In this document: positions 46,043-63,708 of the stretch, one piece after another
Numbering within the stretch: the first letter of the stretch is position 1
Layout: every line of letters starts with the position of its first letter
Assembly: GCA_902779075.1 (NCBI GenBank)
Contig: CACZAK010000029.1
Coordinates: 1 to 64,000, forward strand
DNA: 64,000 nucleotides
Reading direction: 5' to 3'
From: an uncultured bacterium
Lineage (GTDB): Bacteria > Verrucomicrobiota > Kiritimatiellia > RFP12 > UBA1067
The notes under the pieces: model-generated
The model's input: only the letters and a program-made list of their open reading frames with translations
Told to the model about the DNA's origin: nothing
Databases searched by the model: none
Position numbers and translations under genes: made by a program

Positions 46043-47428
46043 TCAGGAAGCGCTTCGGGACGCGATCTCGCGGTTGAGGCGTTCCACCGCCACGTCGTCC
46101 AGCGGATAGCGGGCGAGGGCGAACGCCGCGACGGCCAGGAACAGCGCGGGGACTACGCAGACAAGCCAGCGGATGCCCTCTTGTGCAAGCGGCGTCTGCA
46201 TTTCGAGCCCGTTCATGAAATACGCGCCCGCCGCATTGCCCACCGACATCATGGCGAACGCCGCGACAAAAAAGAGAGCGAGAAGCCGCAAGGGCGCGTT
46301 CCGCCGGAACTCCCGCCAGAGATCGCCCGCCTTCATCTGCGCGGCGCCCGACGCATCCATCACCACGCGCTCCTTCGTCTGCATGAAGGAAAAGACGAGC
46401 AGCGCGACGGCGACCACGGCAACGGCAACCATCGTCCACAGCCATGCGCGCGGTTCCGTCGGAAGGACGTCGGCGGACGCGCAGGGGCGCGTCCCTCCCC
46501 GGTCGGCCTGATAGCCGGTTCCGGCGAGCACGAGCCCCGCCGCGGTCTTCCCCAACGCCATCCCCGCCTTGAAGAACACGCCGATCACGCCGTTCACGAT
46601 TCCCGAGACGCGCCTCCCCGTCATGCGTTCGGAATACGAAACCACCTCTGGAACGAACGCCCACATGTAACCCGTCGACACGATGATGCCCGTCGCCTTC
46701 ACGAACTGCGCGGCGTACATGCGGCTCAACACATACAGGGCTGCCATACCGAAAAAGGCTATGGCCGCAAAGACGTAGAACAGCCCCTTCTTCCCCAGTC
46801 TCCGCCGCAGCCACGGCAGCAGCGGCATGAACACGAATGACGGCAGCATCCCGCACGCCATGAAAAGCGCCATCCGCCATGGTAGGGCCCGCTCGCAGAG
46901 CGGGCCGCCCAAGGCGGCCACGAGGATCGGCACGCCCGCCATGGCCACGAGACATCCGGCGTTCGCAAGGAAAATCCGCACGGCGGTCAGCACCGTGATC
47001 TCCTCCGCGTCACGCGTAAGCGAGGCGCTGAGCGCGCCGTAGGCGACGTTCGCAAGCGTAAATAGCAGCGTAAACCCCGCATACGCCGCGCATGCGTAGA
47101 GCATCTTCCACACGCCGCCGAACGGATTGGCGAAGCACAGCACTGAAAAGACGGCAAGCGGAATGCCCGCAAGAATGAGATATGACCTATACTTGCCACA
47201 CGGCGGATGACGCCGGTCGATGAACACACCCGCCAACGGGTTCCACAGTATATCTACAAACTGCACGAAGAGGAACATCGTCGCCGCCGCCGACGGTGCG
47301 AGACCAATGACGTCGGTGTAGAAAAAGAGCAGGTACGTGCCTACCGCGGCGACCAGGAGATTCTGCGCGAAGTCCCCCACGCCGAACCCGATGCGTTCCG
47401 CCCAGACCAATCCATCATCCTGCTTCAT
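46043..47428 (-). CDS. GPH-family sugar:cation symporter (MelB-like)
   Basis: A 461-residue polytopic membrane protein of the glycoside-pentoside-hexuronide symporter group in the MFS superfamily. Family marks are ERIGFGVGDFAQNLLVAAVG in the first helix, NPLAGVFIDRRHPPCGKYRS in the cytoplasmic loop between helices 2 and 3, and about 12 hydrophobic segments. The start at 47428 (MKQDDGLVWAERIGFG) fits the family better than an earlier in-frame codon. It is the last gene of the GntR-DUF4838 operon and probably imports a sugar released by its enzymes. One palindromic repeat is translated inside it as GGPLCERALPW. The substrate is not predictable from sequence alone. Confidence 0.9.
   Translation of the reverse strand: MKQDDGLVWAERIGFGVGDFAQNLLVAAVGTYLLFFYTDVIGLAPSAAATMFLFVQFVDILWNPLAGVFIDRRHPPCGKYRSYLILAGIPLAVFSVLCFANPFGGVWKMLYACAAYAGFTLLFTLANVAYGALSASLTRDAEEITVLTAVRIFLANAGCLVAMAGVPILVAALGGPLCERALPWRMALFMACGMLPSFVFMPLLPWLRRRLGKKGLFYVFAAIAFFGMAALYVLSRMYAAQFVKATGIIVSTGYMWAFVPEVVSYSERMTGRRVSGIVNGVIGVFFKAGMALGKTAAGLVLAGTGYQADRGGTRPCASADVLPTEPRAWLWTMVAVAVVAVALLVFSFMQTKERVVMDASGAAQMKAGDLWREFRRNAPLRLLALFFVAAFAMMSVGNAAGAYFMNGLEMQTPLAQEGIRWLVCVVPALFLAVAAFALARYPLDDVAVERLNREIASRSAS
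46881..46910. repeat. GGTAGGG palindromic element inside the symporter gene
   Basis: GGTAGGGCCCGCTC, a short loop, then GAGCGGGCCGCC on the plus strand. Translated on the minus strand as GGPLCERALPW in a loop of the transporter. Confidence 0.8.
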
Positions 47429-47485
47429 TCTTGAAATTCCAATCAGCCAAGCCGACAGCAAGCGTACGACAGCAAGGCCGGTACG

Positions 47486-48574
47486 TCAATACGGAAACGT
47501 CCTCCCGAACACGTAGTGCGGCGTGATCGCAGGAGGCGAGGGCAGCCGCCCCTTCGCTAGGAGCGCTAGCGCGAAGGCGGCGACCTTCTCGCCGGCCTCG
47601 GAGGCGTCGCACTCAATTCGCGTGAGCGCCTCCGAGTAGACGGGGCCGAGGCCCCGGTTCGACAGCGACACCACCTTGACGTCGCCGGGGATACGGAGTC
47701 CCCGCCCGAGAAACGCCGTGAGCGCGCCCTGCGCGACGAAGTCGTCCCAGAAGAGGAACACGTCGGGGAAACTGGCCCGCAGGACGTTCATGAATGTGTT
47801 GTAGGCCGACCGCTCGATGCCCTCGTAGCGGCCCAGCCCGTCCATGTGCGGAACCGTCATCCAGCCGCTTTTGATCCCCTTGGCCTCAAGCGCAGCCTTT
47901 GCGTCAGGCGTCTCGTTACCGTCGAAACGCACCTGCGTAACGCGCTTCACGTTGGCTCGGACGCAATGCCGCACAAAATTCCCGATTGCCTCTTCGGCGG
48001 AAAAGCGTATCCAGCGGCCCTCTTCCTTCGCGGGAGGTTCGCCGTAGATGAACACGCTCTTCACGCCTGCATCGCGGAGGCATTTGCGCACGGTCGGCGT
48101 GCCGTATATCACGATCGCCACGTCGGGCGTGCGCTCAAGCTCGTGCTTCAGAAACGAAAGACCGATCTGCCCGTCATGCGAGAACACCACCGTGGAGAAT
48201 GCGTACCCCGCCGCGCCCAGCCGGCGGCGAAGCGCGTCGGCGATCATGGTCACGTGGTAGCTGCAGGCGTCCACGTCCGGAAGAACGAACAGCACGCGCC
48301 CGCGCAGCGCCGTGATGTCGCGTGACAGAACAACCGTGCCGACACGCGGGCGCGATCGCACATACCCTTCCCGCGCCAGCTGTTCGACGACGCCGCGCGA
48401 GACGCGGAACGTGAGGCCGCTCGACTCCGCCAGCTCCTTGATCGTCGGGATCGGCGTACCCGCCTTTAGCCGCCCGTAGACGATCTCGTCCTTGATGAAG
48501 GCGCACAGCGCATCCGCACGGGTCGTCGCCCCGTCGGCGGTGTAGTGGAAGTTTTTCAGGAAATCGGTGCTCAT
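47486..48574 (-). CDS. GntR-type transcriptional regulator with LacI-like sugar-sensing domain
   Basis: A 362-residue repressor-type regulator. The N-terminal winged helix is a GntR domain (KDEIVYGRLKAGTPIPTIKE, VSRGVVEQLAREGYVRSRPR). It is followed by a periplasmic-binding-protein-like sensor as in LacI and AraR proteins (GRVLFVLPDVDACSYHVTMI, the VFLFWDDFVAQGALTAFLGR region and DVKVVSLSNRG). It overlaps the DUF4838 gene end by 4 bp and precedes the symporter gene, so it is part of the operon it probably controls, with a sugar as ligand. No operator was identified. Confidence 0.9.
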   Translation of the reverse strand: MSTDFLKNFHYTADGATTRADALCAFIKDEIVYGRLKAGTPIPTIKELAESSGLTFRVSRGVVEQLAREGYVRSRPRVGTVVLSRDITALRGRVLFVLPDVDACSYHVTMIADALRRRLGAAGYAFSTVVFSHDGQIGLSFLKHELERTPDVAIVIYGTPTVRKCLRDAGVKSVFIYGEPPAKEEGRWIRFSAEEAIGNFVRHCVRANVKRVTQVRFDGNETPDAKAALEAKGIKSGWMTVPHMDGLGRYEGIERSAYNTFMNVLRASFPDVFLFWDDFVAQGALTAFLGRGLRIPGDVKVVSLSNRGLGPVYSEALTRIECDASEAGEKVAAFALALLAKGRLPSPPAITPHYVFGRTFPY

Positions 48575-51300
48575 GGGAGGTTCTCTGGTTGTTCAAAGTG
48601 TTTTTCGGGGCGGACGGCGCGGGGCGCCGTCCCTACCAGATGGATGTCAGGGGCGATTTTCCCGCCCGTGCATACGTCGAGACGTTCGACGACGATGCAG
48701 TCCGGAGCGGCAACCATAAAGAGTGCCTGATGCGAATCATGGTCGCCCTTCGGCCGCGGCAGCCACGTCTCAATCTGGTAGAAGAGCGAAGGTATCGCAA
48801 TCGCGGCGAAGCCCCCCGACACGAACGACGTGTCGTTGGTGGCGGAGATGTGGGCATGTCCGCAGACGGCGATCGTATTCGGCGTGTTCGTGAGGAATGC
48901 GAGCGATACGCCGTCGTCCCACGAGATTTCGTCACCGCATCCGAGCCGTGCGAACAGCCCGCGATACGCGCGATGTTGCGAAAACACGTGCAGCCACGGT
49001 TTGCGGGCCGCCCGGTGGTCGGCCCCTACCGGTTCGCACGGTAGGGCGCGACCACCGGGCGCGCCGCCATCTGGCAAGAAATGCACAAGCGTGAACTCGC
49101 ATCCCTTTACCGTGCGCCGCACTACCGGCTCGAACGGCTCGCCAAAGGCGAGCCGCCACGCGACGTCCGGCCCGATGTGCGGAATGTAATCCGCCCAGCG
49201 CCCCTTTGCGACAACCTCGCGTTGCCGCACCTTGAAGTTGAGCGCCGTATCGTGGTCGCCGTAGTGAAAGAGGCGCACGACCGGCTCGCCGTCGGAGCGA
49301 CGGTTTCCGGGAAATACCTCGTTCCACGCGGTTGCGACCTGCTTCAGCTCGGAGAGAAGCCCTAGGTCGGTCAAGTCTCCGGCGGCGATTACGGCGTCGG
49401 CCCTCTTCACGTTGAAGAGCCGCAACGCACGCTTGAGATCGGAGGCGTCGTTGTCGTCGCCGACGTGGACGTCGGCGATCAGACCGATGCGGACGGCGCG
49501 GGGCGCCGTCCCTACCGGTTCGCACGGTATGGCGGTCGCCCCGCGATCGCCGAATTTCCGGAACAGCGGCTCCACATACTCGCGCTGGAAGAGCGTGATG
49601 CGCCGCGCCTCGAGCGAGCCGACGGCGACCTTCGCCTCCGCCGCGCGGAGAAGCGCGGCGAGGCGCGAGAGCACCTCCGGCGAATAGATCTTCGTACGCA
49701 GCTCATCCTCTGTCGGCGCCTTGCACACACCGGGACCGAGCGGCGTGTCGTAGGGATGGGCGACGACCTTCATCCAGCAGCTTTCCAGCGTATCGAAGAA
49801 CTCAGCCATCTCCGCCGCCGCCGCGCCGAACATGAGCCGGTGGTGTTCTGCGAGGATTGCCTCGACGTCGGTCTCGGGATTCCAGCAGACGCGCGAAAAG
49901 ACGTAGTAGTTGAGGTAATTGTATAGCCATCTGTCGCTTTCGCTCTCTGCGAACGCGCCCGTCACGTGCGGCGCGACGGCGCGGTAGTACGCCGCCCACG
50001 CGCGCGGCGCAAACTGCGGGATGTCCTTCATCTCGAGGTTCCAGCAATCCACCTTGTCGGGATAGTTCCAGAGAGAGACCTTGCGTCCGAGCTTTTCGTG
50101 CCAGCGGCGTACTTCGTCCCGTTCGCGCGCGCCGATTGCCGTGCCTTCGGCCCAGGGGCCACGCCGCGCCACGAACACGTCCACGTTTCCGGGAATATCG
50201 TTCGTGGGAATGCGCGCGTAGGGAATGTACGACATCTGCGAGACGCGCGCGCGGGTGAAGCGGGCTGCGAGGCGGTTCGCAAGTTCGGCGGTGCGCCGCC
50301 AGACGAGGTCGGTAGCGAAACCTGTATCCGTTTTCGAAAATGGAATGTTATTGGCGCACCAGTCGCATTTGCAGTGCCGCGCCCACGTGAAACCGTCCTT
50401 CGGCATGGCGTCAAAGACGGGAGGCCACGCCGGTAGGGCGGTTTCGATGAAACCGCCGCCCGGTAGGGCGCGACCACCGGGCGCGCCGCCAATGATCGCA
50501 CAGGCGTTGGTGTAAATCGCGTCCCAGGTCTCCGGTGAGAGGCAATGCGTCTTCGCGCCGTGGCAACACCTGAGGTGATAGGTTTCCATCCGGAGGCGAT
50601 ACCAGTTGAGTCGCTTGAAGGCGGTTTCATCCATCCCGCCGAGCAAGTCACGCGCGACGGGTCCGTCGGCATAGCCGTAACGGCGCACGGAGAAGGCGGG
50701 GGCTTCTTCGATGCGGTCTTCGGGCACGGCGATGCGCGCCGCCTTCGGAATGCATGTGCCGAGTTCGCCGGGGAAATACATGCGCACGCCTGCGAAGCGT
50801 TCGAGGAAGGCATACACGCCGAAGAGCGTGCCGCGTCGGAAACAGGGCTGCCACGGGGCCTCGTCGGGCAGCGCGGCGGTGGCGGCGGGATCTGGGGGAT
50901 CGTCGTCGTTTCCGACGATGCGCACAACATTCGAGCACGCCTCGATGACGTAGGCATCATCTGGCCCCGCCGGTAAGGCGGTTTCGATGAAACCGCCACC
51001 TGGTAGGGCCCGCTCGCCGAGCGGGCCGCCGCCCAGCACGATTGCCGTCTTGCCGGATGTGCGTTGCGCGACAACCGGCAGCGGCGCGCCGAGGATGCGC
51101 GCGAGGAAGCAATTCAGCTCCTCGGCCGCGATCCGAGTGGCCGAGGGCGCACCGGCCGACAAAACGATTTCTGAGGAGCGGTCGATTATAATCACCGGAT
51201 TTTCCGCAAAGGCCGCAAAAAAGGCAAAAAGAGCAAGGCGAGGCAGGCAAAACCCGAACCGCTTTGTGACCTTTGTAATCTCTGTGGCTGAAAACATCAT
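48571..51300 (-). CDS. Secreted DUF4838 (GH67-like) protein fused to a calcineurin-like phosphoesterase
   Basis: About 909 residues from the ATG at 51300, which overlaps the upstream TGA. A signal-like segment (CLPRLALFAFFAAFAEN) precedes an alpha-glucuronidase-like N-terminal fold (IAAEELNCFLARILGAPLPV) and a DUF4838 region (RRGTLFGVYAFLERFAGVRM, MYFPGELGTC). From about residue 600 a metallophosphoesterase follows: RIGLIADVHVGDDND, VIAAGDLTDLG, FHYGDHDT and VCGHAHISA. In the third of these the usual GNHD is GDHD. Five palindromic repeat insertions are translated in frame, as GGRALPGGGFIETALPA twice, VGTAPRAVR twice and GGRALPCEPVGADHRAAR once. The protein probably acts on a host or plant glycan outside the cytoplasm; the substrate is unknown. 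Confidence 0.85.
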   Translation of the reverse strand: MMFSATEITKVTKRFGFCLPRLALFAFFAAFAENPVIIIDRSSEIVLSAGAPSATRIAAEELNCFLARILGAPLPVVAQRTSGKTAIVLGGGPLGERALPGGGFIETALPAGPDDAYVIEACSNVVRIVGNDDDPPDPAATAALPDEAPWQPCFRRGTLFGVYAFLERFAGVRMYFPGELGTCIPKAARIAVPEDRIEEAPAFSVRRYGYADGPVARDLLGGMDETAFKRLNWYRLRMETYHLRCCHGAKTHCLSPETWDAIYTNACAIIGGAPGGRALPGGGFIETALPAWPPVFDAMPKDGFTWARHCKCDWCANNIPFSKTDTGFATDLVWRRTAELANRLAARFTRARVSQMSYIPYARIPTNDIPGNVDVFVARRGPWAEGTAIGARERDEVRRWHEKLGRKVSLWNYPDKVDCWNLEMKDIPQFAPRAWAAYYRAVAPHVTGAFAESESDRWLYNYLNYYVFSRVCWNPETDVEAILAEHHRLMFGAAAAEMAEFFDTLESCWMKVVAHPYDTPLGPGVCKAPTEDELRTKIYSPEVLSRLAALLRAAEAKVAVGSLEARRITLFQREYVEPLFRKFGDRGATAIPCEPVGTAPRAVRIGLIADVHVGDDNDASDLKRALRLFNVKRADAVIAAGDLTDLGLLSELKQVATAWNEVFPGNRRSDGEPVVRLFHYGDHDTALNFKVRQREVVAKGRWADYIPHIGPDVAWRLAFGEPFEPVVRRTVKGCEFTLVHFLPDGGAPGGRALPCEPVGADHRAARKPWLHVFSQHRAYRGLFARLGCGDEISWDDGVSLAFLTNTPNTIAVCGHAHISATNDTSFVSGGFAAIAIPSLFYQIETWLPRPKGDHDSHQALFMVAAPDCIVVERLDVCTGGKIAPDIHLVGTAPRAVRPEKHFEQPENLP
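48612..48637. repeat. GGTAGGG palindromic element near the 3' end of the DUF4838 gene
   Basis: GGACGGCGC pairs with GCGCCGTCC and is followed by CTACC on the plus strand. Translated as VGTAPRAVRP. Confidence 0.8.
49005..49068. repeat. Head-to-head pair of GGTAGGG palindromic elements
   Basis: An element ending CCCCTACC and one starting GGTAGGGCGCG face each other across GGTTCGCAC. Their loops, CCCGGTGGT and ACCACCGGG, are exact complements. Both are translated inside the phosphoesterase domain as GGAPGGRALPCEPVGADHRA. Confidence 0.85.
49491..49516. repeat. GGTAGGG palindromic element with degenerate partner
   Basis: The same GGACGGCGC/GCGCCGTCC stem as at 48612, followed by CTACC, the recurrent GGTTCGCAC linker and a decayed partner beginning GGTATGGCGGTCGCC. 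Translated as VGTAPRAVRIG at the start of the phosphoesterase domain. Confidence 0.8.
50431..50490. repeat. Two tandem 30-bp palindromic elements
   Basis: Two exact 30-bp units, each beginning CGGTAGGGCG and ending CCGCCGCC or CGCGCCGCC, abut at 50460/50461. The first has the loop TTTCGATGAAA and the second ACCACCGGG. They are translated as GGAPGGRALPGGGFIETALP. Confidence 0.88.
50971..51030. repeat. Two tandem 30-bp palindromic elements
   Basis: A 30-bp unit beginning CGGTAAGGCG, with the TTTCGATGAAA loop, is followed directly by one beginning TGGTAGGGCC and ending GGGCCGCC. The arrangement repeats the one at 50431-50490. Translated as GGPLGERALPGGGFIETALP. Confidence 0.88.
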
Positions 51301-52547
51301 TCGCCCTCGAACGTGAGCGAGCCAAGCGGCTTGAGGTGGATGCAGAAGCGCGTGGAGTAGAGCGCTGAATCTGGTGCCGCCATCTGCCGACGGCACGGCA
51401 GAAGGTCGTAGATTGCCGTCTTATTGCCATCCCCGTTGGCGCTCTTAATTATTCTCCACGTACCGCCCGAAACGCCCACGGGATCGGTACTGGCGTCAGG
51501 CAGTCCATAGTCTGGGAATGTATATGTTCCCGTGTTCTTCGCCGTATCGAGCGTCCATTCGCCCGCAAGTCCCGAAGCGTCGAAGATTCCCCAAGCGTTG
51601 GCGGATTTTCTGCCTACCGTACCCTGCGGCGCGGGGCCAGGATTGCCGTACCAGGCGACGATCTCATTCACATGGTTACTGATGGTTGAAAGGTCTTCCT
51701 CCATCGTACCACCCGTCGGCCAGAAGGTCGTGGTGTTAGCACGGGCGGCCACTTCCCACTGCTCCTCCTCGCAGAGATCGACAAGCAGACCCTCGCCGAC
51801 CTTCGCGCGCAGCTTTGCGACAACGGAATCCGGCGCAACCTTGTATCCCGTCGTCGGCCAATCACCATGATCTGCGGTCTTCTCGCCACGTAGCGCGTTG
51901 TACGCGAGAGTCTTGGGAATGTAGCTCTCGCTCTGCGTTACCCCCACAAGGCAGGCATGTTGCGCCTCCGTATACTTGTAGATGCCGACGTAGAAATCAC
52001 TCGTGAAAGTCACCGTCCGGCGATTGCAGTTGGTCGTCGTCACAGAACCTGGATTGTAGTGTTTCAGGTGCCTGAACGTCTCCAGCGGCTCCCCCAGCGT
52101 GTACGTTCCCGCGGGAATCCGCCTGAACACCATCTTCGACGACTTGTGCTCGGCGGTCCAGCCGCCGGCGGGCACATCTGGAAGAAACTCGTAGCCGCCA
52201 TTCACGAGATTGACGACGATGTAATTATGCGCAGCAGCCGAGGCGTTCGAGACCGCCACGGTGAAGCCCGTCAGCGTCTTGCCGGCGAACGGCGAGGTGG
52301 CGGGATCCCACGTGAAACGGCGCTGCCCGGGCGCACAATCGAAGAGCGTGCCGAGGCGGTAAGGCGTGGGATGCGCATCCCACGTCGCCGTCACCTCGAC
52401 ATCGCTCGTTTCGCCGGATAGTACGAAATCCACGTCCACCTTCTCGTTCCACGGCCACCGCTGGTTCACGAGTACCTGCGAGACTGCAGATTCGGCAAAC
52501 GTGCCAAGAACCACAGAAAAGGCCAACAATCCAATCACGTTCTTCAT
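51297..52547 (-). CDS. Secreted SUMF1/formylglycine-generating-enzyme-like protein
   Basis: A 416-residue exported protein with the signal MKNVIGLLAFSVVLGTFAES. Residues 20-130 form a beta-rich domain (VDVDFVLSGETSDVEVTATW). The rest is an FGE-sulfatase/SUMF1-type fold: KMVFRRIPAGTYTLGEP, FYVGIYKYTEAQHACLVG, a variant of the usual GLCEEAQWEYAAR region (VDLCEEEQWEVAARANTTTF) and SGLAGEWTLDTAK. True sulfatase activators use a pair of cysteines in the active site; that pair is not evident, so a C-type-lectin-like or structural role is as likely as catalysis. It overlaps the DUF4838 gene by 4 bp and follows the HTH-fusion gene by 3 bp. Confidence 0.86.
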   Translation of the reverse strand: MKNVIGLLAFSVVLGTFAESAVSQVLVNQRWPWNEKVDVDFVLSGETSDVEVTATWDAHPTPYRLGTLFDCAPGQRRFTWDPATSPFAGKTLTGFTVAVSNASAAAHNYIVVNLVNGGYEFLPDVPAGGWTAEHKSSKMVFRRIPAGTYTLGEPLETFRHLKHYNPGSVTTTNCNRRTVTFTSDFYVGIYKYTEAQHACLVGVTQSESYIPKTLAYNALRGEKTADHGDWPTTGYKVAPDSVVAKLRAKVGEGLLVDLCEEEQWEVAARANTTTFWPTGGTMEEDLSTISNHVNEIVAWYGNPGPAPQGTVGRKSANAWGIFDASGLAGEWTLDTAKNTGTYTFPDYGLPDASTDPVGVSGGTWRIIKSANGDGNKTAIYDLLPCRRQMAAPDSALYSTRFCIHLKPLGSLTFEGE

Positions 52548-52550
52548 AGT

Positions 52551-53321
52551 CTACCTCAAGAAGATTTTCAAGCCAATGTACAGCGGCCAGGCGATGTCAT
52601 AGCCCGAATCGCCCGATTCGCCTAGCCATGCCGGATCGAACGCATACACGCGCGGCGTCTGCAACTTCGCCAGCTCGCGCTCTGGCGTGTCCATCGCCGC
52701 GCGCACCGTAATCGGCTCGCCGCCCACGCCGGCGACGTAGGCAAGCGTCGCCGTCTCGCGCGCAACCTCGCGCCCGCCACCCGACTGTACGAGCGTCACG
52801 TCGACGAGAGTTTCGCCGCCCGGTCGGGCGCGATCACCGAGCGCACCGAGAGAACCACGGACCGCCCGGTGGTCGGCCCCTACCGTGCCGCGCGCAACCT
52901 CGACCGTCGAAGTCGTGCGCAACATACGGTTGGAGAATGTTAGCGTCGCAGAGTCCGCGCCTTCCTCCCACGACCATTCAAGGGGCGCAGCGCGGTCGTG
53001 GACGGTCTGCCAGAGTCGCATGTCGGATTTCGATCTGATCGTCGTCCCGGCGAAGGCCGAAAGACCACACAGCAGCACGAGCGGCAGGTACTTCTTCACC
53101 ATGTTGCGCGCGACTTTCAGGGCCTGCGCGGCGCGGCTGAGGTTCCGCCCGTACTTGTCGAACACGCGTCGGACGTGTCGGCGGACCGCCGCGTCGAGCT
53201 CGTCGGGGAGCGCGCTGTCGGCGACCGATTTCATGAGCGGAAGCACTTTCTGCTGCTGCGACTCGCTCGCCGCCACAGCATACTCGGTCCAGCCGTAACC
53301 CGTCAAAATTAGGTTGTCCAT
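52551..53321 (-). CDS. Fis-type HTH segment fused to a signal-peptide-bearing protein
   Basis: A 256-residue frame with two incompatible halves. Residues 1-78 resemble a small DNA-binding protein with a Fis-like helix-turn-helix (RRVFDKYGRNLSRAAQALKV, then ARNMVKKYL). Starting at Met73, MVKKYLPLVLLCGLSAFAGT looks like a normal signal peptide, followed by a beta-rich secreted domain (LWQTVHDRAAPLEWSWEEGA, LTFSNRMLRTTSTVEVARG) ending GLKIFLR. The segment MVKKYL serves both readings. Either two genes were joined by a deletion, or translation restarts at 53105, although no Shine-Dalgarno site is seen there. A translated palindromic repeat (GTVGADHRAVRGSLGALGD) lies in the second half. It is the first gene of the operon. 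Confidence 0.7.
   Translation of the reverse strand: MDNLILTGYGWTEYAVAASESQQQKVLPLMKSVADSALPDELDAAVRRHVRRVFDKYGRNLSRAAQALKVARNMVKKYLPLVLLCGLSAFAGTTIRSKSDMRLWQTVHDRAAPLEWSWEEGADSATLTFSNRMLRTTSTVEVARGTVGADHRAVRGSLGALGDRARPGGETLVDVTLVQSGGGREVARETATLAYVAGVGGEPITVRAAMDTPERELAKLQTPRVYAFDPAWLGESGDSGYDIAWPLYIGLKIFLR
52821..52884. repeat. Degenerate and intact palindromic element pair
   Basis: A decayed unit starting CGGTCGGGCGCG and an intact one ending GGTGGTCGGCCCCTACC lie about 10 bp apart. Both are translated in the secreted half of the fusion protein. Confidence 0.7.
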
Positions 53322-53399
53322 CGTTCTTCCTTTCCTGATCCGAAAGAGATTGTATCAAAATCAGACCACCGAGGTCAAATTGTGGTTGTAATCAATCAG

Positions 53400-53621: not shown

Positions 53622-53623
53622 TT

Positions 53624-55302: not shown

Positions 55303-58300
55303 TACGCCTCAGCCTTCCCCACAAGGATCTTCGCGGCGTGTCCGTTGAGGTCAACTGACTTCGCCTCGCCGCATGCGGCGAAATCAAGCGCGACGGCAAG
55401 CGTCTCGGCCGTCACGTAGTCGCGATGCGCCTCAATCGCCGCCTTCAGCTCGTCGTCCGCCTCCACCGTCACGCGGATGCGCTGCGTGACCTCGTAGTCG
55501 GCTTCCTTGCGCATCGCCTGCACGTGGCTCACGAATTCGCGGGCGAGGCCCTCGGCCACAAGCTCGGGCGTGAGCGCGGTTTCAAGGCCCACCACCACGG
55601 GGCCATCGGAGGCCACCACGAGGCCGGCCTTCGGGGAGCGGGTGACGAGCACATCTTCGGGTGCGATCTCGACACCCTCGATGACCTTAGTCTCACCGTT
55701 CCCCGTTCCCCATTCCCCGTTCCCCATCGCCGCGATGGCGGCCGCCACGGCCTTCATCTTCGGGCCGCATTTCTTGCCAAGGGTCTTGAAGTTCGCCTTG
55801 TAGGAAACGTCGCAGAGCTCCGTTTCGTCGGCGACGAACTGCACGGCCTTCACGTTCAGCTCGTCCTCGATGAGCGATTCAAGACCCTTCACGTCGCCGC
55901 CGGCCACCTTCAGGACGGAGAGCGGCTGGCGCACCTTGAGGTCGTTGTCGGCGCGGAGGCGCCGTCCGAGCTCCACCACGGCCTGCACGTCGGCCATGCG
56001 GCGCTCGAGGTCGAGGTCGCGCGCGGCGGCGTTCGCCGTCGGGAAGTCGCACAGGTGCACGGATTCGGGGTCGCCCTCGCCCTTGAGGTTGCGGTAGATT
56101 TCCTCCGCGATGAACGGCGTGAACGGCGCGGCAACCTTCGCGAGTTGCACGAGCACGTAGCGGAGCGTGCGGTAGGCGCAGAGCTTGTCGCCGTCGTTCT
56201 GCGACTTCCAGAAGCGGCGGCGCGAGCGGCGGATGTACCAGTTCGTGAGATCCTCGATGAACTTCACGAACGGACGCACCGAGCGTTGCAGGTCGTAGAC
56301 GTCCATCGCCGCCGTCACGTCGGCGATCAGCGTTTCCATCGAGGAAACAATCCAGCGGTCAAGCACGTTGTCGCTTTCGGGGAAGCGCACTTCCGCGTCA
56401 GCGAATCCATCCACGTTCGCGTAGGTCACGAAGAACGAGTAGGCGTTCCAGAGCGGGATGAGGATGTCGCGCATGAGCTGCTTCACGCCGTTCTCGGAGA
56501 ACTTGAGGTTCTCGGCGCGTACGACGGGCGAGTAGATCATGTAGAGGCGGATTGCGTCGGCCCCGTACGTATCAAGCATCTTCGTGGGGTCGGGGTAGTT
56601 CTTGAGGCGCTTCGACATCTTCTTGCCGTCTTCGGCGAGCACGAGACCGTTCACGATCACGTTGCGGTACGGCGACTTGTCGAAGAGGCACGTGCCGAGC
56701 ACCATGAGCGTGTAGAACCAGCCGCGGGTCTGATCGAGGCCCTCGGCGATGAAATCGGCGGGGAAGAAATCGACAACGGACGGGGGCTCTGGCGCCCCCG
56801 AACCCCGCCCAAGGTTGCCGCCTTCGGCGGCTTCACCCATATAATGCTGCTGCGCATACGGCATCGAACCGCTCTCGAACCAGCAGTCGAGCACTTCGGG
56901 GGTGCGGTGGTAGGTCTTGCCGTCCTTCTTGATCACGATCTTGTCAATGAAGTGCTTGTGGAGGTCTGTCACCTTCTCGCCGGAGAGCGCCTCCAGCTCG
57001 GCGACGGAGCCCACGCAGATCATGTCGGAGGGGTCGGCGTCGTTCACCCACACCGGGATGCAGCTGCCCCAGAAGCGGTTGCGCGAGATGTTCCAGTCGC
57101 GCGCCTCCTCGAGCCAGTTGCCGAAACGCTTCTCGCCCACGTAGTCGGGCGTCCAGTGCACGGTGGCGTTGTTCTTCGCGAGGCGCTCGTGAAGATCCTC
57201 CACGCGCACATACCAGGCGTCGATCGCGCGATAGATGAGCGGGGTGTCGGTGCGGTCGCAGAACGGGTAGGAGTGGACGATCGTCGCCTGGTGGACGAGC
57301 TTGCCCTCGGCCTTGAGGCGCTTGATGATGTCCTTGTCGCAGTCCTTGCAGAAGCGGCCCGCGTACTCGGGCACTGCGTCCGTGAAGGCGCAAGCGTCGT
57401 CGAGCGGATCGGCGAACGCGGTGATCCCCGCCTCCTTGCACACGCGGAAGTCGTCCTCGCCGTAGGCGGGGGCGATGTGGACGAGGCCCACGCCGTCGTC
57501 CGTCGTCACGTAGTCGTCGTTCAGCACCTGGAACGCGCCCTCGGCGCGCTTCTCCGCGAAGTACGGGAACATCGGCTCGTACTGCACGCCTTTCAGCGCA
57601 CTGCCCTTGAACTCGACCACAACCTCGTACTGCTCTGGTTTCTTGAAGATGTGAGGCAGACGGGCCTTGGCCATCACGTAGATCGGGCGCGCGTCGTCAG
57701 TGAGGTCGCGTACGGCCACGTAGTCGATGCTCGCGCCCGCACAAATCGCAAGGTTCTCCGGGAGGGTCCAGGGGGTGGTGGTCCAGATGAGGAGGTAAAG
57801 CGGAGTGTCATCTAGCTTTTCTAGCACACCTAGCTTTTCTAGGAAGGCCTGCCCATCGATCACCTTCACCCGCACCGTCACGGTCGGGTCCTGCACGTCC
57901 TTGTAGTTGCTGCCGGCCTCGAAGTTGGAGAGCGGCGTGGAGAGCTTCCACGAATACGGCATGATGCGGTGGCTCTTGTAGACGCGTCCCTGGTTCCAGA
58001 GCTGCTTGAACACCCACCAGATCGTCTCCATGAAGTCGGGGTTCATGGTCTTGTAGTCGTTGTCGAAATCGACCCAGCGGCCCATGCGCGTGACGGTCTT
58101 GCGCCACTCGCTGACGTACTTCAGCACCATCGAGCGGCATTGCTCGTTGAACTTGTCGACTCCGATTTTCTTGATCTCGGGCGCGCCGGCGATGCCAAGC
58201 GCCTCCTGCGCGAGCGCCTCGATCGGGAGACCGTGCGTATCCCAGCCGAAGCGGCGCTCCACGTACTTGCCGCGCATCGTCTGATAGCGCGGCACGATGT

Positions 58301-58499
58301 CCTTGATCGTGCCCGCGAGCAGATGCCCGTAGTGCGGCAGGCCCGTCGCGAACGGAGGACCGTCGTAGAACGTGTAGCGTCCCTTGCCCTTGTTGCGGTC
58401 CAGCGACTTCTTGAACACGTCGCCTTCCGCCCAGTATTTCAGGATTCCTTCCTCCATCTGGGGGAACTGGACCTTGTTGGACACCGGTTTAAACATCAT
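55302..58499 (-). CDS. ileS: Isoleucyl-tRNA synthetase, type-2-like, with in-frame insertions
   Basis: Charges tRNA-Ile with isoleucine. About 1,065 residues, a length and pattern typical of the eukaryote-like type-2 group. The HIGH-type motif is GLPHYGHLLAGT, the editing domain has LLIWTTTPWTLPENL, and the KMSKS-type motif is DGKKMSKRLKNY. An ATG at 58499 or 58496 with GGAG upstream fits better than the upstream TTG. Three odd insertions break conserved regions: FLEKLGVLEKLDD near residue 217-228 before the editing core, EAAEGGNLGRGSGAPEPPS near 552-572 before FFPADFIAEGLDQT, and MGNGEWGTGNGE near 924-936. All three are in frame and lie where relatives have short loops. It is first in the ileS-pyrK-pyrD order. 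Confidence 0.95.
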   Translation of the reverse strand: MMFKPVSNKVQFPQMEEGILKYWAEGDVFKKSLDRNKGKGRYTFYDGPPFATGLPHYGHLLAGTIKDIVPRYQTMRGKYVERRFGWDTHGLPIEALAQEALGIAGAPEIKKIGVDKFNEQCRSMVLKYVSEWRKTVTRMGRWVDFDNDYKTMNPDFMETIWWVFKQLWNQGRVYKSHRIMPYSWKLSTPLSNFEAGSNYKDVQDPTVTVRVKVIDGQAFLEKLGVLEKLDDTPLYLLIWTTTPWTLPENLAICAGASIDYVAVRDLTDDARPIYVMAKARLPHIFKKPEQYEVVVEFKGSALKGVQYEPMFPYFAEKRAEGAFQVLNDDYVTTDDGVGLVHIAPAYGEDDFRVCKEAGITAFADPLDDACAFTDAVPEYAGRFCKDCDKDIIKRLKAEGKLVHQATIVHSYPFCDRTDTPLIYRAIDAWYVRVEDLHERLAKNNATVHWTPDYVGEKRFGNWLEEARDWNISRNRFWGSCIPVWVNDADPSDMICVGSVAELEALSGEKVTDLHKHFIDKIVIKKDGKTYHRTPEVLDCWFESGSMPYAQQHYMGEAAEGGNLGRGSGAPEPPSVVDFFPADFIAEGLDQTRGWFYTLMVLGTCLFDKSPYRNVIVNGLVLAEDGKKMSKRLKNYPDPTKMLDTYGADAIRLYMIYSPVVRAENLKFSENGVKQLMRDILIPLWNAYSFFVTYANVDGFADAEVRFPESDNVLDRWIVSSMETLIADVTAAMDVYDLQRSVRPFVKFIEDLTNWYIRRSRRRFWKSQNDGDKLCAYRTLRYVLVQLAKVAAPFTPFIAEEIYRNLKGEGDPESVHLCDFPTANAAARDLDLERRMADVQAVVELGRRLRADNDLKVRQPLSVLKVAGGDVKGLESLIEDELNVKAVQFVADETELCDVSYKANFKTLGKKCGPKMKAVAAAIAAMGNGEWGTGNGETKVIEGVEIAPEDVLVTRSPKAGLVVASDGPVVVGLETALTPELVAEGLAREFVSHVQAMRKEADYEVTQRIRVTVEADDELKAAIEAHRDYVTAETLAVALDFAACGEAKSVDLNGHAAKILVGKAEA

Positions 58500-58589
58500 T
58501 TTCTCCAAATCTGTGTAAAACGCCTATAGTATACCACAAAGACGTCCGTATACCAACACCCGCCCTTAGGGCGTTGTTGCGCCGGCACG

Positions 58590-58847
58590 TCAGTACATCT
58601 TCTCGTACTCGCCCTTCTGCACCTTCTTCAGACAGGAGAAGCCCGCGCGTTTGGCACGGTAGTGCAGGTCGGTCTGCGAATGGCCGAGCCCTGGGGCCTG
58701 TATTACGCGGAAAATCGGAGCGCCGCAATCGGGGCATACGGTGAGTTTGGGATCGTTGATCGACTGGGCGATCTCGAAACCCGCGCTGCACTTCGCGCAT
58801 CCTTTAGACCCTTCCTTCACCTCGTAGACGTACATCGGCATGGCCAC
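58590..58847 (-). CDS. FmdB-like zinc-ribbon protein
   Basis: An 85-residue protein with a single zinc ribbon: GCAKCSAGFEIAQSINDPKL followed by CPDCGAPIFRVI. That is the two-CxxC, FE..QS..D pattern of the FmdB/CxxC_CxxC_SSSS putative regulator family. The start may be at 58847 or at a Met three codons on (MYVYEV), the more usual family start. It follows folE by 4 bp in the same direction. The function of this family is not established. Confidence 0.85.
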   Translation of the reverse strand: MAMPMYVYEVKEGSKGCAKCSAGFEIAQSINDPKLTVCPDCGAPIFRVIQAPGLGHSQTDLHYRAKRAGFSCLKKVQKGEYEKMY

Positions 58848-58851
58848 ATCC

Positions 58852-59439
58852 TCACTTAGCGAGCGACAGGAACTCCTGCCGCACCTTCTCGTCCTCGCGG
58901 AAACTACCGAGCATGGCGGACGTAATCATCTCGGAATTCTGTTTCTCAACGCCCCGCATCATCATGCAGAGATGCCTGCATCGGAACACCACGCCCACGC
59001 CCTCCGCGCCGGATGCATCCTGAATCGCCTCCGCCACTTGCTCGGTCAGCCGCTCCTGTATCTGCAGACGGCGCGCGAAGCAGTCCACGATGCGGGCGAT
59101 CTTCGAGACGCCCAGCACCTTGCCGCGCGCGATGTATCCCACCGCGCACGTGCCGAAGAACGGCAGCAGATGGTGCTCGCACATCGAGTAGACCTCGATG
59201 TCCCGCAGCACGATCATGTGGTTCGCACCAGTCTCGAAGACGGCGTTGTTCAGTACGCCCCTCGGCGTCTGGCGGTAGCCGCGCGTGAGGAAAGCAAGGG
59301 ACTTCGCCACGCGCGACGGCGTCTTCAGCAGCCCTTCGCGCCCGGGATCCTCGCCCAGTTCCACGAGGAGCTGGCGCACGAGCGACGCGATTTTGCGTTC
59401 GTCCGGTTCACGGACTTCTGTCTTCTTCATTTTTCGCAT
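58852..59439 (-). CDS. folE: GTP cyclohydrolase I
   Basis: Converts GTP to dihydroneopterin triphosphate, the entry step of folate or tetrahydropterin synthesis. The 195-residue protein has the zinc and catalytic motifs [15 protein letters not shown] and [18 protein letters not shown], with [20 protein letters not shown] between them. The usual VEAEHLCM is CRHLCM here, which keeps the active-site His and Cys. Length is typical. A start three codons in is possible. It lies 12 bp after the kinase stop and 4 bp before the zinc-ribbon gene. Confidence 0.95.
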
Positions 59440-59451
59440 GGCGGTATTCTA

Positions 59452-60954
59452 TCAAACGTCCGCCCGCGCCGCAACTGCCCACTCGCCGAGCTTTTCGGTG
59501 AGCGCGCACCAGCGGACGTAGCGGCGGGCGTAGTCGGCGGCGGATTCGGCGTCCGGCGAGGCCTCCGCATCGGCGCGCGAAATCGTCTCGAGGATCGAGA
59601 AGTCGTCCCACACGCCCGCGCCAACGCCCGCCACGAGAGCCGCGCCGAGTGCGGCCGCCTGCTGCCCGATCGCGGCACGCGCCACGCGGCGGCCGTAGAC
59701 GTCCGCATAGATCTGACGCCACAGCGGCGAGTTCGCGCCGCCGCCCACGAGCGTAAGCGGCTCTGCGACCGGCGCAAGACGCGCCAACTCGTCAAGCGCG
59801 TTACGGAGCCCGAACGCCACCCCCTCCATCACGGCGCGGATCACGTCGCCGCGCGTGTGCCGGAGGTCGAGGTTCGCGAACGCGCCGCGCAGCGCCGGCG
59901 TCGGGTCGAGCGAACTGCCGCCCGCGAGCGACGGGTTGAAGTAGAGGTCGTGCGCGCCGCGGCCCGCCTTCTCCGCCTCGGCGTCCATCGCCACGAAGTC
60001 CATCCCGCCGCACAGCACGTCGCGACACCACGTGTGCGACGTCCCCGCCGAGAAGATGGCGAGCGCGGAGGCGTACTGTCCCGGCACCACGTGGTCGAAC
60101 ACGTAGGGACGCGTCGCGACGTCGAGAAGCGGCTTCGCGGAGGAGACGGCAATCCACGCCGACGACCCGAGCGAGCAGTACGCCCGCCCTTCCCGCCACG
60201 CACCCGCACCGAGCGCCATGCAGGAGTTGTCCACGCCGCCAGCCACCACCTTCACGTCCTGCGGCAGCCCCAGCTCGCGCGCGGCGTCCGGCGTGAGCGC
60301 GCCGAGTACCTGCGTGGCGGGGACGATCTCGGGGAAGAGCTCGCGCGGCAGGCCGGAGGCGGCAATCAGCCCTTCGTCATACCGCCGCGCCGCGAGGTCG
60401 TACACGCCCGTGCCGGAGGCGTAGGAGAAATCCGTCGCCCGCACGCCGCAGAGACGGTAGTTGATGTAGTCCTTCGTACCGAGGATCGTCACGGCGCGTC
60501 CGAACCATTCCGGCTCGTGCGCGCGGAACCACATCAATTTGAACACCGAATAGAGCGCGGCCGGGAACCCGTTGCCCGTCTTCATGTACCACGCCTCCTC
60601 CGGCACCTCGCGGAAGAACGCCTGCGCCTCTGCGCCCGCGCGCGAGTCGCTCCAGATCGGCACCGTGGGACGCAACAGGTTGCCCGCCGCGTCGAGCGGG
60701 ACCACGCCGAGGGAGTGTCCGGAGATGCCGAGCGCACGCACGCGCTTCATCTTCTCCTCGCCCGCCTGTTCGGCGAGGAGACGCGTGGAACGTACAGTCG
60801 CGCGCCACCAGTCCTCGGGGGACTGCTCGTGGAAACCGCTCGCGGGATAGGTCGTCTCGTAGGCGTCGAAGCCGGACGCCACGCACGTGCCGTCCGCGCC
60901 GTACAGGGAGGCCTTGATGCCGCCCGTTCCAAAATCGTATGCGATGATGTACAT
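59452..60954 (-). CDS. FGGY-family carbohydrate kinase (xylulokinase-like)
   Basis: A 500-residue sugar kinase. It begins MYIIAYDFGTGGIKASLYGA, the phosphate-1 motif of the FGGY family, and contains GISGHSLGVVPLDAAGNLLR, VVAGGVDNSCMALGAGAWRE, the GSSAWI segment, and the adenosine motif PLTLVGGGANSPLWRQIYAD. The start at 60954 has AAGGA seven bases upstream. As sequenced, the preceding GH38-like gene reads through into it without a stop, because of an eight-base A run just before the kinase start. With one A fewer, the upstream gene would end at TGA and this gene would start independently. The sugar is not determined; xylulose, rhamnulose and related ketoses are the usual substrates. Confidence 0.88.
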   Translation of the reverse strand: MYIIAYDFGTGGIKASLYGADGTCVASGFDAYETTYPASGFHEQSPEDWWRATVRSTRLLAEQAGEEKMKRVRALGISGHSLGVVPLDAAGNLLRPTVPIWSDSRAGAEAQAFFREVPEEAWYMKTGNGFPAALYSVFKLMWFRAHEPEWFGRAVTILGTKDYINYRLCGVRATDFSYASGTGVYDLAARRYDEGLIAASGLPRELFPEIVPATQVLGALTPDAARELGLPQDVKVVAGGVDNSCMALGAGAWREGRAYCSLGSSAWIAVSSAKPLLDVATRPYVFDHVVPGQYASALAIFSAGTSHTWCRDVLCGGMDFVAMDAEAEKAGRGAHDLYFNPSLAGGSSLDPTPALRGAFANLDLRHTRGDVIRAVMEGVAFGLRNALDELARLAPVAEPLTLVGGGANSPLWRQIYADVYGRRVARAAIGQQAAALGAALVAGVGAGVWDDFSILETISRADAEASPDAESAADYARRYVRWCALTEKLGEWAVAARADV

Positions 60955-60965
60955 TTGATGATCCT

Positions 60966-63708
60966 TCATTTTTTTTGTTTCGGAAAGAATGAAACTCTTC
61001 GGCGCCCACGCGCCGAGCATAAAGGTGAAGCTGCCGTTCTTTACGGCAATTGGCTCGCCGGCGATTTCACCGCGCAGGTTCACCGGCTGCGCCGTGGCTG
61101 CCTTCATGCCCGGCGGCAACGTAACCGTGATTTCGCCGCCATTGCCCGCCTGCTCCCATACGCGCAGCACGGTTCCCTCTCCATCAGGATTCGGGCAGAA
61201 CGCCGTCACGCGCACCCCCTTCCGCGACAGCGCCACACCACTTGCAACACTGGGACAACGGGCATCTTGCCCGTTGCCCGCCGCGAACGCGGCGACGGCG
61301 GGCTGGCGGATCTCCCACGCGGGCGTGAACACCGTCTGCTCCTCGTCCGCGCCGTGGGCGACGGGATAGACGCGCAGCGAGGCCGACCATGAGCCTGGAA
61401 TCCATAGCGGGAAGTTCGTGTTCCACTGGTTGTTGTAGAGGTTCGCGAACACCTCCGACTCCGTCGGCACGTAGTCCGGCTCGTAGCGCCAGAGCCCCGG
61501 CCTTCCAAGGCTCCAGAGCGGCAAGTCGGCGGACACCACGCCCACGCCCGCGCCGCCGGGGCCGCTCCGCACTGTAATCGCACGGTCCGCGCAGAGGATG
61601 TCCTTGTTCCCGCCGAAGATGATGTCCTTCGTGGGGTCGATCGTGCCGCCGATGCGTCCGACGCGGAACGACGGCCCCTCTACGTTGAACGGAAGACACA
61701 ACCAGCCACCCTCGGGAATCGGATCGGGCGTCTTGTCTTCCACGCGCCACGTGATGTCCACGCACGGCAGATGGTCCGGAAACGAGAAGCGCATCTCATA
61801 CGCCTTGGCGAGGCCCTTTGTGTCGTCGGGCGTCATCACCACCTCCACGCCCAGCGGCGAGCACTTCATGCGCGCGCGCCAGCCGGACGGCGTGATCGCG
61901 GCATACGGCGAATGCGCGACGTCCGGCATCCCCGGCTTGCTGAGTCCGTCGTTCTTCTCGCGCTCGTTGTAGATCTTCGAGTAGCGGCCCACTTCGTTGC
62001 GGCTGAAGCGCTCGTGCAGGAACTGCCCGAGGACGTGTCCGCCCTGCTTCACGAGCTCGCGCCCGGTCGCATTCTCGACGAGCGAAGAAATGCCGCCCTT
62101 CTCCAGATCAAACTTAACGGTAAAGTGGCGGAACTTTTTGATTTGTCCATGTAGAACATGTAGATCATTTTGATTTTCTACATGTTTTACCTGTTCTCCA
62201 TGGACAACATAAGTCTTGTAGCCGCCGGCCGGAAGGCCCTTTGCAAGGAACCTCACCTTTTTACCCTCCCTCACCGCATTTGGTAGGGACGCCTCGCCGA
62301 GGCGTCCGCCCTCCGGCATCTCCACCTCTACCACGGCGTCGCGCACATACGGCAGCGGATTGAACACCACCACGCGCGGGCCTGCCACGTCAACGCTCCG
62401 CGCAAGCGCCTCCATGCGCGCCCGGATGCCGTCCTGTGCCGCCTTGCACGCACGGCGCGCGTAGTCCGCATGGTACTGGAACGATTCGTCGAACTCCTTG
62501 TATTCGCCGGAGTCGTAGCGCTGGCGCCAGCCGGGACGGTACAGCCGCGGACCGCGCACGCGGAAGCCGGCGAGCCCCCAGGTGTGTTCCGAGTAGAGGC
62601 CGGAGTCGCGGTAGGCACGTTCCAGGAGTTCCGCGACGGGCTCGGTCGCGACGCCGAACGCCCGCAGCGTGGTATCAAGCTGTCCAAGCGTGACGAGGTC
62701 GCCGACGGTGCGGCGGTGGATGGCCGTCGCCTCGGGCAGGGTCATCATGCCGTGGATCCACGTATCGGGCATGTCGCCGCGCACAACGGGCAGGGACGGA
62801 TGCGCCTTCTCCTCCGCGATGATGGCGTCCGCGAATTCGTCGGGGTTGCCAAAACGCACATTGATGCCGGGGAGCTGTTGCCTCGCCTTGCGCAGGATAT
62901 TGTCCACTTCCTTCCGCGACATCGGGCCGGCGTTGTCGCCCCGCATGTAGTAGGCGAGCCACGTCTTGTGCCGCCACCCCTTGGGCGGTGTCACGCTACC
63001 GCCGCCCATCCATCCGTATTTGGGCGAGTATCCAAGCAGAATACGTGAACCGTCAGGGCCCTCCCACCAGCAGAGCGTCGGAATCTTTTCCACCACGGAC
63101 TTGGGCTTGCTGCACGGGTTGCTGCCCAGATGCAGGAACTTCACGCCGGCGTGGGCGAGCAGCGTGGGCATCACCCATGCGTGCTCCGGCACGTCCGTCT
63201 GCTTCGCATAGCGCGGCAGATCGAAGCCGAACTTCCGCGAGAGGTTCGAACCGTATGAGAACATCCGCACCAGTTCTTCGGCATCCGAGGCCTCCGTCTC
63301 GCTCGTGAACGGCAGCGCATGCCACATCAGGCGGCGCTGGCGCACGGCATCCTCGATCTTGGCCCGACGTTCGGGGGAATACTGTCCGTTCAGGATCGCG
63401 TCGGTCAGCCAAGCCGGCAGCGTCCAGCGCACGCGGAGGTCGGGCGGCATCGTCCGGTCGGAATCGAACAGCGCCAGCGCCTTGTCCATGTATGACGTCC
63501 TGTACAGCTTGACCAGTTCGGGGACAGTGTGCGTGTAACCCACGTCGAGGTGGCACTTCGTGACGATGATCACCTCCTCGAGGTTCGGCCAGTCGGGCGA
63601 CCTGCGCTCCGCCGCCTTCTTGGCGAGATCGCTTTCAGCGCCCAGCGCCGCCGATGCGCCAAGCGCCATCGCCGCCACAATAGCTACTTGTCCAATTTTA
63701 TTCGTCAT
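60966..63708 (-). CDS. Secreted glycosyl hydrolase, GH38-like
   Basis: About 914 residues from the ATG at 63708 (MTNKIGQVAIVAAMALGASA), with AAGGA upstream and a clear signal peptide ending LGAES. The N-terminal domain starts IIVTKCHLDVGYTHTVPELV, resembling the HxD metal motif of GH38 alpha-mannosidases and of the related DUF5054 group. It continues through VMPTLLAHAGVKFLHLGSNP and DMPDTWIHGMMTLPEA. A large C-terminal beta-rich part follows (FLHERFSRNEVGRYSKIYNE, DHLPCVDITWRVEDKTPDP). Three palindromic elements are translated within it. No stop is present before the kinase gene; the eight-A run at 60969-60976 (T on the plus strand) is one base too long to give TGA at 60966-60968. Confidence 0.85.
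61256..61276. repeat. Palindrome inside the GH38-like gene
   Basis: The arms CAACGGGCA and TGCCCGTTG surround TCT. Translated in frame as GNGQDARCPS, between AAFAA and VASGVAL. Confidence 0.65.
62143..62207. repeat. AT-rich 65-bp nested palindrome inside the GH38-like gene
   Basis: Outer arms TTGTCCATG and CATGGACAA, and inner arms AACATGTAGA and TCTACATGTT. Base composition is far more AT-rich than the gene around it. Translated in frame as VVHGEQVKHVENQNDLHVLH. Confidence 0.8.
62281..62310. repeat. GGTAGGG palindromic element inside the GH38-like gene
   Basis: Exactly 30 bp: TGGTAGGGACGCCTC, GCC, then GAGGCGTCCGCC. Translated in frame as EGGRLGEASLPN. Confidence 0.85.

Follow-up and report, generated by a model that had tools for sequence, protein, structure and literature searches.

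GTAG-class REP-like palindromes inside and between genes of a ruminant-associated Kiritimatiellae genus, with different hairpins at conserved junctions

Repetitive extragenic palindromes (REPs) carrying a GTAG tag were defined by Di Nocera et al. (2013), who described them in Verrucomicrobia and the Planctomycetes-Verrucomicrobia-Chlamydiae (PVC) superphylum, also inside genes, with alternative complementary stems within a family (PMC3733652). A 1988 review cited in the same paper names REP evolution by gene conversion in its title. In the REPtrons (a Y1 transposase gene flanked by cognate REPs) described in PMC8266576, the GTAG, a loop base or bulge and intact pairing weigh most, and changes of stem sequence are milder in effect. 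Different REP classes occur beside orthologous genes for REP-associated tyrosine transposases, or RAYTs (PMC3686654), REP pairs (REPINs) were proposed as the mobile unit by Bertels and Rainey in 2011 (PMC3116915), and REPs are described as seldom overlapping coding regions (PMC12306157). Here we analyzed a stretch of 64,000 nucleotides (nt), hereafter the window, from contig CACZAK010000029.1 of an uncultured Kiritimatiellia bacterium, along with genomes of its relatives. The window carries GGTAGGG-headed palindromes in reading frames, which the original prediction held to be unrelated to any family. The GTAG tag and hairpin instead place them in the GTAG REP superfamily (PMC3733652): judged by tag, length, copy number and dimer types, these are GTAG-class REPs with an unusual share of copies inside genes. 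Among the papers listed by searches of the open-licence literature, none was seen that reports these elements or the swapping of hairpins at fixed intragenic sites.

Fourteen copies of one element were identified within the window (Table 1), slightly more than first tallied. All of them align without gaps as GGTAG followed by a 21-nt hairpin, made of a stem of 9 base pairs (bp) and a 3-nt loop, and usually by GCC. The GTAG is exact in 11 copies and decayed in three. Three pairs do not vary among the 14: two G-C pairs at the base of the stem and one C-G pair at its apex. The tip ACCACCGGG, initially read as a 9-nt loop on a 6-bp stem, lies within the 9-bp stem, which there has one A.G mismatch at pair 7. 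The window has 12 GGTAGGG sites, whereas shuffled sequence averaged 3.2 (standard deviation 1.6) and none of 100 shuffles contained as many; 11 of the 12 sites head a hairpin of the family, the exception being site 22099. A covariance model built from the 14 copies recovered all of this training set at E <= 1e-5; the matches ranked next were mostly the 14 copies read on the reverse strand (best E 0.035), and the top match elsewhere had E 0.22. Pairing in the stems reaches 95.7% of cells and the covariation score 0.67, compared with 67.8% (standard deviation 3.2) and 0.16 after shuffling of the 3' letters; neither value was reached by any of 500 shuffles. Two-sided changes affect 6 of the 9 pairs, but 89 of 500 shuffles reached as many, and the number of pair types was reached by 38 of 500. 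All 14 copies lie in open frames and none adds a stop or shifts the frame, as the original prediction had proposed for the copies it listed, and the peptide it quoted, GGRALPGGGFIETALPA, is present in the translation.

The covariance model was next run on the genomes of relatives, which are fragmentary bins. It matched at least 18 of the 21 nearest genomes (E <= 0.1) and 70 of 115 genomes of the order (E <= 0.001), confirming that further copies exist elsewhere in the genus. The genome nearest to the window (G001), which has 34% of sampled 31-letter words in common with it, contains at least 157 matches at E <= 0.1. A strict finder retrieved 91 elements with 32 different hairpins from 697,256 nt of G001 (an uneven sample, as contigs were partly picked for having matches) and 19 elements with 12 different hairpins from 384,527 nt of a second relative, G009. 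These 110 elements found with the true tag compare with 2-15 for nine control tags. Likewise, in the window and both samples, 21-nt hairpins with 0 or 1 mismatch followed GTAG 50 and 58 times, respectively, and five permuted tags 0-1 and 0-2 times. Of 388 copies in a broader collection, for which some loci were fetched by one hairpin type, 268 were perfectly paired, and pair 7 was the only mismatch in 58 of the other 120. At least 116 stretches of species genomes contained an exact 28-nt form of the element. Among the 80 stretches listed, record titles name Kiritimatiellae, Lentisphaerae, Verrucomicrobia or 'uncultured bacterium', and many give the gut of goat, sheep, roe deer or yak as source; one Bacteroidales and one Saccharofermentans bin are outliers that may be binning errors. 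The window thus comes from a Kiritimatiellae genus occurring in ruminants. Elements also form arrays in non-coding DNA (L063:14061-14239 and L070:14831-15039) with periods of 50 nt and 36 nt, and further non-coding periods of 31, 32 and 34 nt were seen.

Genes were called with our own codon-usage caller of whole open reading frames (ORFs) rather than from annotation, after scoring of 66-codon flanks proved too weak. Within called genes were 48 of 91 copies in G001, 13 of 19 in G009 and 13 of 13 in the window, where the finder overlooks the copy at 52822; the remaining 43 and 6 copies of G001 and G009 are intergenic. The claim that all copies lie in genes therefore stands for the window (14 of 14) but not beyond it, and the intergenic share exceeds the approximately 16% of non-coding DNA in the sample (p 4e-12, computed on 43 of 93). 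Frame usage is uneven in the combined G001, G009 and window set. Antisense copies prefer one frame (36, 4 and 7 by frame), and the 27 sense copies occupy two (15, 0 and 12), the remaining one being that in which the TAG of the tag would be read as a stop. Antisense copies in the 80 listed loci were distributed 30, 5 and 7 for the queried hairpin and 12, 1 and 14 for other hairpins, the finder behind these counts, and behind the 51 pairs described below, having read two G001 hairpins on both strands. A fixed reading frame, which the one frame per orientation among the window's 14 copies had suggested, was discarded because several frames are used in G001 and other loci; the preference is a bias of antisense copies and not a lock. 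Spacing of same-direction copies in genes also respects the frame: the distance between neighbours was divisible by three in 25 of 28 cases inside genes, compared with 20 of 37 outside them (p 0.003; counted without 14 loci of RUG10619, which is the same genome as G001).

The 941-aa gene that holds most of the window's copies allowed the sites to be compared among homologues. In DNA alignments with G001, G003 and G009, 30-nt units are extra or missing, and sites filled in one genome are not filled in another. When the first 59 of 330 homologues of the protein were aligned, all five insert clusters proved empty or variable, with lengths between a few and dozens of residues; in place of the 20-23 residues of the window protein, a short link (for example AALP, FPVRPSVRI) is all that many homologues possess. 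The empty sites that the original prediction expected in host-gene orthologues were thus observed, and the retention of the same residues in distant orthologues, which would have spoken against insertion, was not seen among these 59. In the loop corresponding to residues 303-322, homologues from other species carry non-palindromic microrepeats (TNYQLPT, NNPNNT and similar), so this site takes several kinds of repeat. An AlphaFold2 model of the window protein with the 59 homologues was of moderate quality, with a mean predicted local distance difference test (pLDDT) score of 65 and residue 1 missing. Element-coded residues fell in stretches with pLDDT < 50 in 75 of 97 cases compared with 297 of 940 overall, which 2 of 939 circular shifts reached, and 87 of 97 were predicted as coil compared with 451 of 940 overall. 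As supporting evidence only, this suggests that the inserts fall in predicted loops of this one host protein.

These data bear on a peptide-level function, in which the encoded residues would matter to the host proteins and be maintained for that reason. The antisense frame preference (36 of 47) would fit such a function, as would a VGTAPRAV-like peptide, encoded by the sense copy of the pair 49488-49554, in 16 of the 59 homologues (near relatives share some inserts). We nevertheless regard it as very unlikely, given the two frames of the sense copies, the scatter of antisense copies of other hairpins over frames, the predominance of predicted coil, and the unrelated fillers, microrepeats among them, or nothing at all, found at each site in homologues.

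Comparison of G001 with G012 or G057, approximately 95% identical over the best blocks, gave 8 identical, 5 point-changed, 6 absent and 9 different elements, although noisy alignments and repeated rows for a single site are among these counts. Two clean absences, of 27 nt in G012 and of 63 nt (two elements) in G057, each change the length by a multiple of three. In the C43 region (one sub-block left out), comparison of the window with G001 gave only two 30-nt differences that involve elements, both in existing arrays. More broadly, we collected 51 element pairs with matching flanks, a non-independent mixture of orthologues, arrays and paralogues in which hairpins decayed by more than two mismatches are missed. 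Tag and hairpin were identical in 23 pairs, 16 had only one-sided stem changes or changes of loop or tag, and 12 were compensated. Of the latter, 11 also had a changed loop; the twelfth (L182/L196) shows two compensated pairs in an otherwise unchanged hairpin, and its flanks failed to align on inspection. The proposal that compensating changes reflect selection on each hairpin thus found little support, as this was the only such case among the 51 pairs. Stem covariation here suggests exchange and not stepwise compensation.

Ten pairs were inspected individually and three loci were retained as same-junction differences. At C56:10066 of G001 the tip is CGCCCCGCG, compared with TTCGATGAA in G012, G057 and L200 (the last perhaps the same genome as G057), and the tag, outer arms, 3' end and adjacent flanks are common to all four; G011, G013 and G022 have another palindrome without the tag, and G010 has none. 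At the 46881 junction ('gccatccgcca'), the window and G001 carry the GGCCCGCTC hairpin, other hairpins or arrays occur in G057, G006, G005 and G009 (the last with a run of Ns), a remnant is left in G004, and G003 and G059 have no element. The 62282 site holds GGACGCCTC in the window, GGCGGTCGC in G012 and no element in G001. The other pairs inspected, such as L034/L036, L031/L035, L023/window and L182/L196, were rejected as same-junction sites because they are poorly aligned, shifted or part of arrays. There is also partial mixing of outer arms and inner modules, 18 of the former and 35 of the latter giving 55 combinations in 344 elements with paired outer arms; the arm GGCGCG has at least six inner partners and the module CTCGCCGAG at least seven outer ones.

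Two explanations other than exchange can be confronted with these loci. Firstly, different REPs might independently enter a preferred target site in different species, nothing being exchanged in place, which we consider possible though not the expected case. Insertion of the IS200/IS605 type (IS608, ISDra2) is site- and orientation-specific, and repeated hits of this kind would yield the same junction; relatives without an element at 46881 (G003, G059) and 62282 (G001) also agree with independent insertion, which is possible for both these loci. It accounts less well for the mixing of arms and modules and for C56:10066, where G001 differs from G012 and G057 in the tip alone, TCGCCCCGCGA versus TTTCGATGAAA, and matches them in tag, outer arms, 3' GC and nearby flanks. 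That locus is more simply read as an in-place exchange of the tip. Secondly, the hairpins could be structured RNAs that act in mRNA (stability, attenuation), with paired changes selected singly. This is in our view very unlikely, although the covariation score of the window copies is strong and REPs have been proposed to act on mRNA (PMC3733652). A search of the window against Rfam at gathering thresholds gave no match, the 16 one-sided pairs and the loop changes in 11 of 12 compensated ones argue against singly selected changes, the copies inside genes are often antisense, and relatives have lost some copies or carry different ones.

With regard to a mobilizing enzyme, the Y1_Tnp domain (PF01797) was found in 17 of the 21 near relatives and in 86 of 115 genomes of the order. 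Specifically, it was present in 64 of 70 genomes with covariance-model matches versus 22 of 45 without (Fisher p 5e-7) and, within family f1, in 47 of 49 versus 13 of 19 (p 0.005), both from a hand-made table that ignores phylogeny. For all nine Y1 proteins chosen, the best match was NF047646 ('REP-associated tyrosine transposase'), with scores that stayed under its cut-off of 80 (top score 79.7). A TnpA-REP-like transposase, which the original prediction advised looking for, is therefore present in most carriers but is not adjacent to the elements: an element lies within 1 kb at only 5 of 40 Y1 loci (42 Y1 hits in G001-G013, several loci stopping at contig ends), no more than estimated from element density, and so the linkage of RAYT and REP seen in REPtrons was not recovered. 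One locus (G005 L124) has an element on each side of the Y1 gene, at 13 and 92 nt. Palindromes near 16 RAYT-like ORFs were in general not of this family, and several of these ORFs contain other in-frame palindromes, such as CCGGGGCG-tct-CGCCCCGG after GTAA/GTAT in G002 (L115) and GGCGGGC-gcggag-GCCCGCC in G001 (L112) and G012 (L144). A CT cleavage dinucleotide as in E. coli REPs is not claimed, since the enrichment of CT at -3/-2 (54 of 282 single copies) results from a conserved Y at -2. The general lack of a linked RAYT gene would be expected if the elements were ends of another insertion sequence or of a miniature inverted-repeat transposable element (MITE) family moved by a DDE transposase. 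We think this unlikely: conservation around the 282 single copies stops at about -2 and +3, with no longer terminal repeat, and the GTAG tag suits single-strand transposition.

Taken together, we find it probable that the elements are trans-mobilized GTAG-class REPs that are tolerated in protein loops and whose hairpins can be exchanged in place. They would be non-autonomous hairpins of approximately 29-30 nt that spread through ruminant Kiritimatiellae genomes, most likely by an HUH/Y1 RAYT-like single-strand transposase encoded elsewhere in the genome; since Y1 genes occur in most carriers but not beside the elements, we infer that it acts in trans. This enzyme probably reads the unpaired GTAG, the GG/CC pairs at the stem base and the loop together with the apical C-G pair, but little of the middle stem, which would therefore be free to vary as long as it stays paired. 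Copies would enter intergenic DNA and genes alike, and those in genes would survive if the length they add is divisible by three and the peptide sits in a tolerant loop, presumably being translated as largely neutral filler. A settled hairpin or its tip may then be swapped for that of another copy sharing GGTAGGG and CCGC, by template switching or strand transfer, and stems would therefore seem to covary.

Several observations weigh against this account of trans-mobilized, exchangeable REPs, beginning with the distance between elements and Y1 genes noted above. Mobility is read from comparison of sequences, and the association with Y1 may reflect phylogeny and genome size. Six genomes with matches have no Y1 hit, including G014 (24 matches) and G079 (56% complete, 17 matches). 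Clean insertion junctions are rare, since numerous aligned sites belong to arrays or to hotspots of mixed repeat kinds, and even the cleanest gap (27 nt, L063:7077 versus G012) may represent a deletion, having GCC(A/G)CC microhomology at its flanks. Between opposite-direction neighbours the distance is divisible by three in only 6 of 18 cases in genes and 2 of 16 outside. Finally, a low pLDDT is what one expects of variable columns, regardless of why they vary.

In-place exchange is the novel and unproven part of the finding. In its strongest form, fixed GGTAGGG/CCGC sockets would take interchangeable hairpin cartridges copied from one another, through template switching or strand transfer by the transposase, and loops would be reshuffled; we put this forward tentatively and with considerable doubt. 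If true, each swap would rewrite a surface peptide of 9-10 residues with the frame kept, as many sockets are in protein loops, and the outcome would be a slow genome-wide reshuffling of such loops. REPs are usually regarded as extragenic, whereas in these ruminant gut bacteria, which have been little studied, about half of the GTAG REP copies sampled are in genes, where they would add loop peptides to the proteins. Comparison of the same sites also offers a possible reason for the many different yet perfectly paired stems of REP families, as whole hairpins or tips may be swapped. Exchange of this kind is an alternative to compensatory mutation and cautions against taking covariation of repeats as proof of RNA structure. 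The family also offers many sites where insertion, loss and exchange can be timed between strains.

Other palindromes were noted in the gene at 59452-63759. A second family (61246-61282; core CAACGGGC-atctt-GCCCGTTG, in-frame antisense GNGQDARCPS) has 20 copies in the window and G001 sample, 18 of them in called genes, and many near-exact matches in G001, G004, G006 and G012. A longer A+T-rich imperfect palindrome at 62142-62208 (ACATGTAGA..TCTACATGT) has copies of 75-90% similarity in G001 and G012.

Table 1. GTAG-class REP elements and their principal host gene in the window (MFS, major facilitator superfamily; other gene coordinates are given with the elements).
Feature	Position	Strand	Remarks
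GTAG-REP	25277..25305	-	stem GGCCGCCTC/GAGGCGGCC, loop GCC; sense in gene 24405-26963
GTAG-REP	46881..46909	+	stem GGCCCGCTC/GAGCGGGCC, loop GCA; antisense in MFS gene 46043-47461; relatives with other hairpins at same junction
Host gene, DUF4838 and metallophosphatase, 941 aa	48571..51396	-	9 of 14 elements, in 5 clusters
GTAG-REP	48609..48637	-	stem GGACGGCGC/GCGCCGTCC, loop CCC; near C-terminus of gene 48571-51396; G001 without copy
GTAG-REP	49002..49030	-	GGGCCGACC-acc-GGGCGGCCC; tail-to-tail dimer with 49040
GTAG-REP	49040..49068	+	GGCGCGACC-acc-GGGCGCGCC; A.G mismatch at pair 7
GTAG-REP	49488..49516	-	GGACGGCGC-ccc-GCGCCGTCC; tail-to-tail dimer with 49526
Decayed GTAG-REP (GGTATGG tag)	49526..49554	+	GGCGGTCGC-ccc-GCGATCGCC; missed in the original prediction
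GTAG-REP	50432..50460	+	GGCGGTTTC-gat-GAAACCGCC; first in head-to-tail pair, period 30
GTAG-REP	50462..50490	+	GGCGCGACC-acc-GGGCGCGCC; second in pair with 50432
Decayed GTAG-REP (GGTAAGG tag)	50972..51000	+	GGCGGTTTC-gat-GAAACCGCC; first in second head-to-tail pair
GTAG-REP	51002..51030	+	GGCCCGCTC-gcc-GAGCGGGCC; second in pair with 50972
Decayed GTAG-REP (GGTCGGG tag)	52822..52850	+	gene 52551-53321 (two copies); missed in the original prediction
GTAG-REP	52856..52884	-	GGGCCGACC-acc-GGGCGGTCC; head-to-head with 52822
GTAG-REP	62282..62310	+	GGACGCCTC-gcc-GAGGCGTCC; antisense in gene 59452-63759; other hairpin in G012, none in G001

The likeness to described systems can be set out point by point. 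As in the GTAG REP superfamily of PMC3733652, compared here by description of its 24 families and not by their consensus sequences, we found palindromes within 20-40 bp with an unpaired GTAG at one end, a stem in the usual range of mostly 6-9 bp, a short loop, high copy number, subfamilies with alternative stems, head-to-head, tail-to-tail and head-to-tail dimers as well as clusters, and presence in the PVC superphylum. In-gene copies are likewise known in the superfamily, most of them in Opitutus terrae (PMC3733652). On the other hand, the superfamily is described there as mostly intergenic, a typical though not strictly defining trait, often with RAYT genes close by, whereas here about half of the copies are in called genes and Y1 genes, present in most carriers, are mostly unflanked.

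Among REPtrons, the group 3 REPSm of Stenotrophomonas maltophilia, with 23 nt, GTAG, a perfect 8-bp stem and a 3-nt loop (PMC8266576), resembles our 25 nt of GTAG, 9 bp and 3-nt loop, and the recognition rules reported there fit the invariant and free positions of the elements. It differs in its cognate flanking transposase, for which no counterpart was found at the 40 Y1 loci, and the conserved A.G mismatch at pair 7 in a subset of copies is nearer to the bulge of E. coli group 2 REPs (PMC8266576). The inverted pairs 49002/49040, 49488/49526 and 52822/52856 recall REPINs, but single copies and head-to-tail tandems are common here. The proposed likeness to Rickettsia palindromic elements holds insofar as both are in-frame palindromes within genes, here with empty sites in homologues. 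The tag differs from that of RPE-4 and RPE-6 of Rickettsia, which were grouped with CGTC-tagged REPs (PMC3733652).

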